Positions 30,077-32,460 of a stretch of DNA of 32,460 bases are shown here, in pieces. The translations under genes were made by a program, and so were the position numbers. This stretch comes from a virus. Position 1 is the stretch's first letter; each line of letters begins with the position of its first letter. Under the pieces are notes generated by a model. It saw only the letters and a program-made list of their open reading frames with translations. It was not told where the DNA came from and did not search any database. Location of the stretch: positions 1 to 32,460 of the IMG/VR virus record IMGVR_UViG_3300030451_002185; one strand, written 5' to 3'.

Positions 30077-30790
30077 ATGGCATTGCCAAAACTGAATGAT
30101 ATGCCGAAGTTTTCGGTAACTATACCATCGTTAAATGAAGAAATTAGAATACGACCCTTTGTGGTAAAAGAAGAAAAAGTTTTATTGATTGCTATGGAAT
30201 CAAACGATCCTAAACAGATCGCCATGGCAATAATCGATACGATTGTTTCTTGTACTGAGGGAAAGATAGATCCGAATAAACTTACATCATATGATGTTGA
30301 GTATATTTTTATGCAGATCAGATGTAAGTCTGTAGGTGAGACAACTGATATAAGATTAAAATGTAAAGAGTGTGAATCAGAAAACGATGTTACAGTAAAT
30401 ATAAATGAAATAAAAATTAATACGAAAGTACCAGATAAAAGAATACAATTAACAGATAAGATCACTATAGAAATGAAACTGCCCACATACTTAGAGATAG
30501 CAGGTAATGATAAGATCGTAAGCAACTCTACATCTACTATGGATCAGATATTTGGTATCATTTGTCAATCCATAGATTGTGTTATGACTGAAGAAGAAAG
30601 AATTAGTTTTAAAGAAATAAAGCATGAAGAACAGATAGAGTTTATAGAATCTATGAGTCGTGAACAATTTGATAAAGTTCGCGTATACATGGAGAGTCAA
30701 CCAATGCTGAGACACAAGATCGAATTCGAGTGTCAAAGTTGTAGTAAACATAATGAATACACCTTGGAGGGTTTACAAGATTTTTTTTAA
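30077..30790 (+). CDS. 26: Baseplate hub protein gp26-like (T4_baseplate family), frameshift upstream partner, 237 aa
   Basis: The family motif RPFVVKEEKVLLIAMESND (26-44) and DVEYIFMQIRCKSVGE (73-88) identify the T4 gp26 base plate family. Two CxxC pairs, CKEC (96-99) and CQSC (219-222), form a probable zinc ribbon. The zero-frame product ends in Asp-Phe-Phe followed by TAA within a T8 run (30781-30788). A -1 shift there fuses it to 61 more codons (30787-30969), giving about 298 residues. It is preceded by a strong AGGAG. It lies two genes before the tape-measure-like gene, where tail assembly chaperones of other phages lie. Confidence 0.8.
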   Translation: MALPKLNDMPKFSVTIPSLNEEIRIRPFVVKEEKVLLIAMESNDPKQIAMAIIDTIVSCTEGKIDPNKLTSYDVEYIFMQIRCKSVGETTDIRLKCKECESENDVTVNINEIKINTKVPDKRIQLTDKITIEMKLPTYLEIAGNDKIVSNSTSTMDQIFGIICQSIDCVMTEEERISFKEIKHEEQIEFIESMSREQFDKVRVYMESQPMLRHKIEFECQSCSKHNEYTLEGLQDFF

Positions 30791-30879
30791 TTAGTCTATC
30801 TCATACCAGTTTGATGGTGCATTATAAAACAAACTTTGACCTAATGCAACATCACAAATACTCACTAAATGAGATAGAC
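30766..30879 (+). promoter_or_regulatory. -1 programmed ribosomal frameshift signal
   Basis: Three elements lie in register. GGAGGG at 30766-30771 is a Shine-Dalgarno-like stimulator 9 nt before the slip site. T TTT TTT at 30781-30787 is a slippery heptamer in the zero frame (GAT TTT TTT TAA). GTCTATCTCAT (30794-30804) pairs perfectly over 11 bp with ATGAGATAGAC (30869-30879), beginning 6 nt after the heptamer, with a 64-nt loop. This is the E. coli dnaX architecture. The zero-frame stop is at 30788-30790. Confidence 0.8.
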
Positions 30880-30972
30880 AGTATGATGCCGTGGGAAAAA
30901 GAAGTGTATGTAAATATGCTAGTGGACTTTATCAAGGAAGAAAAATTGAGGATGGAAACACAAGGAAAATAA
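30787..30972 (+). CDS. gp26 -1 frameshift extension (tail assembly chaperone-like), 61 codons
   Basis: The -1 frame is open from the slip site and reads LISLSHTSLMVHYKTNFDLM, then QHHKYSLNEIDSMMPWEKEV and YVNMLVDFIKEEKLRMETQG with a final Lys. The helical content and the YSLxEIDxMxPWExxxY pattern look like a real, conserved coding sequence and resemble the short C-terminal T-type extensions of tail chaperones. The ATG at 30814 is in frame but has no ribosome site and lies in the loop of the stem, so expression by frameshift is preferred. The stop is TAA at 30970-30972. Confidence 0.75.
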   Translation, partial: LISLSHTSLMVHYKTNFDLMQHHKYSLNEIDSMMPWEKEVYVNMLVDFIKEEKLRMETQGK

Positions 30973-30973
30973 C

Positions 30974-31126
30974 ATAGTATATCTTTTCTTAATACTAGTT
31001 CATCTGGGTAACGGAGAAACTATATTAGAAATGGATGAAGGTTTCTGGGATTATAAAATGTGTATTGAGTATGCAAATAAAATAAATGGTGAAGCATATT
31101 GCGTCCCAGTAGAAGTAGGAAGATAA
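30974..31126 (+). CDS. Small hydrophobic-N-terminus phage protein, 50 aa, probable AUA start
   Basis: The frame reads IVYLFLILVHLGNGETILEM, then DEGFWDYKMCIEYANKINGE and AYCVPVEVGR, ending in TAA at 31124-31126. The hydrophobic start followed by LGNGE, and a C...YC.PVE ending, is a pattern I recall from tiny membrane-anchored or exported proteins in marine phages. No ATG, GTG or TTG precedes the hydrophobic part; AAGGA at 30962-30966 lies exactly 7 nt before the ATA at 30974. The only in-frame ATG near the start (at residue 20, in LEMDEG) would delete the hydrophobic segment. It may be a sequencing variant or a rare start codon. Confidence 0.5.
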   Translation: MVYLFLILVHLGNGETILEMDEGFWDYKMCIEYANKINGEAYCVPVEVGR

Positions 31127-31127
31127 A

Positions 31128-32460
31128 ATGGATTTCAAGGAAGTCATAAAGGAACTAAAAATTGGTCGGCAACACGATCAGTACCTTGCTGAAAATAAAA
31201 GAAACCAAGACGAGGCAATTCAAAAAGAACTTGCCACTTTAAATAAAATGTTTGGTGCATTCTTTGCCTCACAGAAACCTACTGGTGATGATCTTGAAGA
31301 GAAGCGTGAGAAGAGAGAAAAGAAAGCAACTGAGCAAAAAGCAAAGAATAAACCTAAGAGTTTTAAAGATGGATTCTTTGCAGGAACTGGACTAGATGGA
31401 ATACTGGGTGGTGTTAAAGATTTAGCATCTGCCGCATTTGCTCCCTTTGCAGGTGCATTAGGTGGTATGTCTATTGGTGCTCTTATGGGTAAAGCACTTG
31501 GTATGACTTTCATGGGTGTTGTAGGTGCACTTCTTGGTGCCGCGTTTTTGGATAAATGGGTTGATCCTTTAGTAGATAAGATTACTGGTGATGATGCAAC
31601 TGCTTCTACTATGTTTGGCGAAATTGATATATCCAAAATAGTTTCTGGTATTGGTGGTGCGTTAGGTCTTCTCTTCGGTCCTAAATTAATATCGGCAGTT
31701 GTAGGATCTTACTTTGCAGACATAGGCGGTAAAGAAGGTGGTGGAAAATTTAGATTGATGTTCCTAAGAAGACTTGGTCTTGCAGGACTGTTACTTACTA
31801 TAGGTACTCTTGCAGGTAATTGGATAGATTCGTATGGAGGACCTGACGGAATGGGAAGTGCTGTATCGACTGCATTAACTGCGGCAGGTATTGGAGTCAT
31901 GCTTCTAGGTGGTAAGGGACTGATTATAGGTGCTCTTGTGGGGTTTGCCGTTGCAGGGGTGAGAGGATTGTTTCGATATCTTAATGATAGAGGCGCAGAA
32001 GCAGAAGAGATAGTTGTAAACAGGGTAAAAGAAAATACAGATCAAGTATTTGATGATTTGGCAAATAATCGAATAGAAGAGGCAAATCAAAAAGCAAGAC
32101 AAATCATGGGCGATATTCGCACGATGGATTATAACATAAGGGCAGGAACTACTTACATTGATCAGTTAGAACAAATGTATGCCATAGAACAAGGTGCTAA
32201 AGCGGCAAGAGAGTCGCATAGGGCAAGTGGTCACCTAGGTGGAGTAGATGAAGCAAATGCTATGATAATGAATCAATTGGGACAAAGGGCAGAGACTGTT
32301 AGTGATGCAGATTTACTTGCAGAAATACAAGCGGCAACACAGGGGATGGATTATCAACAAGTACAGAGTTTTTTAACCAATGCTCTAGACGAACTCCCTT
32401 CAGGGTTTGTTGCGAATCAAGACCAAGATAGATTGATGAAAGTTATTACTGAAAATTATG
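31128..32460 (+). CDS. Tape-measure-like / large membrane-interacting tail protein (partial)
   Basis: This begins with an ATG at 31128 behind GTAGGAAG and stays open to the window end, giving 444 residues. The first 80 residues are charged and helical (EEKREKREKKATEQKAKNKP). Residues about 85-260 are Gly/Ala-rich with several hydrophobic segments (FAGALGGMSIGALMGKALGM, MGVVGALLGAAFL, LAGLLLTIGTLAG, IGVMLLGGKGLIIGALVGF). A long helical region with Gln and Glu follows (NRIEEANQKARQIMGDIRTM). This make-up, and its place after the gp26 frameshift unit, match a tape measure protein, which sets tail length and enters the inner membrane. T4 gp29 similarity was not evident to me. Confidence 0.6.
   Translation, partial: MDFKEVIKELKIGRQHDQYLAENKRNQDEAIQKELATLNKMFGAFFASQKPTGDDLEEKREKREKKATEQKAKNKPKSFKDGFFAGTGLDGILGGVKDLASAAFAPFAGALGGMSIGALMGKALGMTFMGVVGALLGAAFLDKWVDPLVDKITGDDATASTMFGEIDISKIVSGIGGALGLLFGPKLISAVVGSYFADIGGKEGGGKFRLMFLRRLGLAGLLLTIGTLAGNWIDSYGGPDGMGSAVSTALTAAGIGVMLLGGKGLIIGALVGFAVAGVRGLFRYLNDRGAEAEEIVVNRVKENTDQVFDDLANNRIEEANQKARQIMGDIRTMDYNIRAGTTYIDQLEQMYAIEQGAKAARESHRASGHLGGVDEANAMIMNQLGQRAETVSDADLLAEIQAATQGMDYQQVQSFLTNALDELPSGFVANQDQDRLMKVITENY

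Follow-up and report, generated by a model that had tools for sequence, protein, structure and literature searches.

A conserved -1 frameshift signal at the end of gene 26 predicts a short and a long tail assembly chaperone in an uncultured T4-like phage

Does gene 26 of this marine T4-like phage end at its own stop codon, or does part of its translation continue in another reading frame? The question arises from the window, i.e. the whole stretch of 32,460 nucleotides of viral DNA analysed here, in which an earlier note had described a complete -1 frameshift cassette at the end of gp26, followed by an open -1 frame of 61 codons. Direct reading confirms this frame to the base, and the GGAGGG, the 9 nt after it, the T_TTT_TTT, the 6-nt spacer and the 11-bp stem are all present where they had been reported. 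The features of the locus are as follows.

30077..30790, plus strand: gene 26, short form (TAC-N), an ORF of 237 aa (27.5 kDa) with the C-terminus LEGLQDFF before the stop
30766..30771, plus strand: GGAGGG, Shine-Dalgarno-like (SD-like) stimulator, by sequence, 9 nt before the slip site
30781..30787, plus strand: slippery heptamer T_TTT_TTT, in phase in 261/261 relatives
30787..30972, plus strand: -1 frame extension (TAC-C, 'gp51' domain), 61 codons plus stop
30788..30793, plus strand: 6-nt spacer, by sequence, which holds the gene 26 stop TAA (30788-30790)
30794..30804, plus strand: 5' arm of the 11-bp stem, GTCTATCTCAT, from sequence, family enrichment and folding
30869..30879, plus strand: 3' arm of the 11-bp stem, ATGAGATAGAC, with codons GAG ATA GAC

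The -1 frame is open from 30787 to 30969 and closes with a stop codon at 30970-30972, and the conceptual fusion of gene 26 with the extension is a protein of 298 aa (34.9 kDa). At the level of sequence, both a short and a C-terminally extended form of the chaperone are encoded here. The short form belongs to the T4_baseplate family PF12322 (E 1.7e-57, 195 bits against a curated cut-off of 24.5), and the zero frame matches phrog_150 (E 1.9e-60). The 61-residue extension matches phrog_634, 'baseplate hub assembly catalyst' or gp51 (E 6.9e-26), as well as the C-terminal part of phrog_150, and is encoded in 503 phage records.

At the junction the zero frame reads GAT TTT TTT TAA, the T run being in fact eight T long (30781-30788). 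The two arms GTCTATCTCAT and ATGAGATAGAC are fully complementary and enclose a loop of 64 nt. The 98 nt that follow the slip site fold at -25.2 kcal/mol, compared with -11.5 +/- 2.6 for shuffled sequences (z -5.4, none of 200 shuffles equal), and a stem this good appears in 0.25% of synonymous randomisations of the window's extension. The arrangement is that of a bacterial-type -1 cassette, with a heptamer near the gene end, an SD-like stretch about 10 nt upstream, a stem 5-9 nt downstream and a conserved -1 ORF that continues the protein. The signal is a real one, and its conservation is strong.

Its conservation was followed in relatives of the extension gathered from IMG/VR and from annotated phage genomes, which gave 261 loci representing 205 distinct junctions. 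Wherever an extension can be recognised (all 261 loci), it follows T_TTT_TTN in the -1 frame, and the zero frame of gene 26 stops no more than 3 further codons past the heptamer; this placement holds as well in phages of Pelagibacter, Methylophilales, Sinorhizobium, Delftia and Pseudomonas and in KVP40. The heptamer is TTTTTTC in 130 of the distinct junctions, TTTTTTT in 45, TTTTTTA in 29 and TTTTTTG in 1. The T run, whose loss in homologues would by the earlier note have counted against a frameshift, is kept everywhere. The two Phe codons are preceded by AGT, GAT, AAT, TCT or GCT, a codon that always ends in T although it encodes S, D, N or A, and the joint use of this wobble T and of TTT for the first Phe has a log10 P of about -15 by codon usage in 48 representatives, a figure that ignores shared ancestry.

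The main alternative takes the extension for a gene 51 of its own, reached by termination-reinitiation or by initiation at an internal codon, and the T run for no more than the code of Phe-Phe. Public records do list 'gp51' as a separate gene, in many cases with an internal ATG as its start, and the first ATG in the window is codon 10 of the extension, nine codons past the slip. However, the annotated start varies from record to record, and a comparison across homologues reveals no conserved start codon, so that this refuting condition of the note also came out in favour of the frameshift. In about half of the 205 distinct junctions the first 17 codons of the extension are free of ATG, and residues 2-9 are conserved nonetheless; H6 and L9, which in most loci precede the first ATG, are invariant in an alignment of 20 sequences. 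A gp51 with a start of its own leaves this conservation upstream of any ATG unexplained, and the pattern is the one expected if the extension continues gene 26. No coding reason accounts for the retention of the wobble T ahead of the run and of the T_TTT, and the T4 counterpart is a fusion. We consider a separate gene improbable. In KVP40 (L014), phiM7 (L105), PhiW-14 (L107) and RHph_I9 (L106), an overlapping TAATG or TGATG in the -1 frame would also allow reinitiation, and both a fusion and a separate gp51 are possible there; RHph_I9 carries the rare slip site T_TTT_TTG. Among the cyanophage and pelagiphage records (L017, L018, L019, L281 and others), the extension is either called 'gp51' from differing internal starts or left unannotated, and several cyanophage records that we examined contain no joined feature for gene 26 and the extension.

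A second alternative, transcriptional slippage, in which RNA polymerase inserts an extra U at the T run so that the long form comes from edited transcripts, is more improbable still. The eight consecutive T of the window are in principle long enough for this, but the commonest junction, TTTTTTC (130/205), has only six, and the SD-like stretch and the stem, which are stimulators of ribosomal slippage, are also conserved. That gene 26 and gene 51 are one ORF split by a sequencing error or a pseudogene indel, as a homopolymer at the break and the in-frame fusion in T4 gp51 might suggest, is refuted by the identical break and heptamer in all 261 loci, contigs and isolate genomes alike.

The Ackermannviridae of the Det7 group (L104, L114-L128) also have a conserved -1 frame (..HLIFEIDLLSYFVMCDEL..) after gene 26. 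Their gene 26 ends in GAR ATT TTC ATT TAA, which lacks the T6 heptamer, and the junction may use another slip site or another mechanism.

The two stimulators are likewise under selection at the nucleotide level. Across the family, the 21 nt before the slip site pair with the tail of 16S rRNA more strongly than synonymous controls do (z -6.9). Among 67 representatives sharing less than 80% identity, stems of at least 11 bp whose 5' arm starts 4-14 nt past the heptamer are found in 28%, against 1.5% of synonymous randomisations (z 16). The excess is small at +20-30 (z 4.3), and in the same 67 representatives there is no enrichment over synonymous controls further downstream, nor any in a control region upstream, within gene 26. 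In about half of the non-redundant relatives, the longest stem does not exceed the chance level. In the window's own class (class A, 47 members), the arms of the stem are nearly invariant while neighbouring codons vary freely, and the GAG ATA GAC codons of the 3' arm are invariant in 47/47 loci, with ATT and GAA dominating in other lineages. Covariation in the stem, which the earlier note had proposed to look for, adds no support in the 37 distinct sequences of this class (1 of 11 pairs; 9 of 11 never vary), since the arms are too constant; synonymous codon choice was tested in its place. The wobble T, the SD-like stretch and a stem that starts 4-11 nt past the heptamer are maintained beyond the needs of coding.

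Other lineages keep the 5' arm in this position and pair it with a different segment. Some have short hairpins such as AGTATGGCTCA/TGAGTCATACT, with a 9-nt loop; in others TTGCATAAGTT/AACTTATGCAA encloses 36 nt and CCTCTCTCACG/CGTGGGAGAGG encloses 84 nt. Besides the short hairpins, partners are located near +52-70, +79-88, +82-92 (the window's class) and +103-115. On the protein tree the window's class forms nearly one clade (2 changes), and all classes together require 20 changes, a number of partner switches that is uncertain since 9 bp is attained in about 11% of the controls and some of the weaker class assignments are therefore due to chance. We lean, by a narrow preference, towards a scenario in which the slip site, the spacer and the 5' arm stay in place and the partner is re-invented between lineages, i.e. 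a turnover of RNA structure under a conserved protein sequence. We found no description of a fixed 5' arm with a moving partner in the literature, the text of Vladimirov et al. 2022 itself aside.

The same organisation can be compared with T4, where gp26 and gp51 both belong to PF12322 (E 8.8e-64 and 3.9e-52), and gp51 runs on in frame into the extension (phrog_634, E 1.2e-23). A profile of the conceptual fusion products follows T4 gp51 across the junction as far as position 280, but T4 gp26, which carries no extension, only up to the junction. By these alignments, T4 gp26 corresponds to the short form and gp51 to the short domain plus the extension. The difference is that T4 has two separate paralogous genes on opposite strands, whereas the phage of the window has one frameshifted gene.

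Frameshifting in several T4-like groups, with genes 26/51 taking this part in T4, was reportedly described by Vladimirov, Gautam and Davidson (Virology 2022, 566:9-15). Atkins et al. 2016 still treated T4 as the exception to the G-T frameshift (PMC5009743). Papers that cite the 2022 study state that a short gene and a separate long fusion gene replace frameshifting in some T4-like phages (PMC10885494), treat poly-T slip sequences as an established feature of T4-like TAC-N genes (PMC12846349, 2025), and call loci of this kind chaperone genes (PMC10885494, PMC12846349). The novelty suggested in the earlier note does not stand, in that frameshifting of T4-like chaperones had, according to these citing papers, been reported in 2022. 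As they present it, a frameshifted T4-like tail assembly chaperone gene is of a kind already described, and the window adds another, uncultured member of the same gene family (26/51) with short and long forms.

More distant parallels exist in lambda gpG/gpGT and P2 E/E', where a chaperone gene of the tail operon likewise ends in a -1 shift that yields short and extended forms. Lambda slips on G_GGA_AAG, the window on a site of the type T_TTT_TTN, and the gene 26 protein is larger, with an added C-terminal part that contains CxxC. The fold of the HK97 chaperone matches the N-domain of gene 26, with no sequence homology shown to the lambda system. With Escherichia coli dnaX the window shares the trio of upstream SD-like element, heptamer and downstream stem; in dnaX the internal SD-like element lies about 10 nt upstream of the heptamer and the stem 5-6 nt downstream. 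However, dnaX uses A_AAA_AAG and a short-loop hairpin rather than a 64-nt loop, and its frameshift gives the shorter protein, whereas that of the window would give the longer one.

The note had also held that members of the gp26 family are tail assembly chaperones, a claim that both the homology to T4 gp26/gp51 and the predicted fold favour. In an AlphaFold model of gene 26 (pLDDT 91), residues 1-95 resemble the solved structures 3fgx (Z 7.9), HK97 2ob9 (Z 7.7) and YqbN 3klu (Z 7.1), with the next-best chain at Z 3.5. The leaders 3fgx and YqbN (3klu), which we take to belong to the same tail assembly chaperone family as 2ob9, matter here: a Z below 8 is weak by itself, yet the three are of one kind and well apart from the rest, which points to the chaperone fold. 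Foldseek alone gave no significant match of the model to a solved structure (best 2ob9, E 0.46), and a profile search of solved structures found nothing. The model thus supports a tail assembly chaperone fold in the N-domain. T4 gp26 and gp51 are themselves listed as hub assembly chaperones (PMC3004832).

The best-supported reading is -1 frameshifting at T_TTT_TTT that produces a short and a long chaperone; the in-phase heptamer, the selected stimulators and the conserved -1 frame all favour this interpretation, which the note had advanced. Gene 26 very probably encodes two predicted tail assembly chaperones that share one start. Most ribosomes would terminate at the TAA (30788-30790) and release the short form of 237 residues. 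A minority, slowed by the internal GGAGGG and by the 11-bp stem 6 nt downstream, would move back by a single base on T_TTT_TTT and continue for another 61 codons, to yield the long form of 298 residues. By analogy to lambda gpG/gpGT, the short form may coat the tape-measure protein and the extension may recruit tail-tube subunits. The signal, its nucleotide-level selection, the conserved -1 frame, the chaperone fold and the T4 gp26/gp51 homology are established here; slippage in cells, its efficiency and a chaperone role are inferred.

Upstream of gene 26 lie genes for a tail-tube protein (phrog_45, E 2.7e-33), a DNA end protector (gp2) and a head-closure protein, arranged in the order seen in marine T4-like genomes, HTVC008M and C48C1 among them. 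Downstream are two further features.

30974-31126, plus strand: conserved 50-codon ORF between the extension and the gene at 31128
31128..32460, plus strand: candidate tape-measure gene, by position only, running off the window

The -1 frame had been said to end just before the tape-measure candidate; its length of 61 codons holds, but the 50-codon ORF intervenes. A search of 50,697 phage records found no match to the gene at 31128, no PHROG hit fell below E 0.003, and there is no meaningful similarity to the HTVC008M tape measure; the gene is a candidate tape measure from its position only. The 50-codon ORF starts in the window with ATA, without ATG, GTG or TTG, 7 nt after AAGGA, and ATA or ATT occupies the same start position in 8 further distinct loci. 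Its internal ATG is not conserved (ATA in L030), and where the ORF is missing, the ATG of the next gene sits in the same AAGGA context. It looks like a small gene that would start at AUA or AUU.

These results indicate that the 'gp51' genes annotated in, or omitted from, cyanophage and pelagiphage genomes are mostly the frameshifted ends of gene 26 and not separate genes. The approximately 200 distinct natural signals, with their differing stems, offer a test set for the relation between stem position and frameshift efficiency. The role of T4 gp26 and gp51 is a long-standing puzzle of baseplate hub assembly, and fold and sequence together provide an independent argument that the two proteins represent a tail assembly chaperone in its short and its long form.
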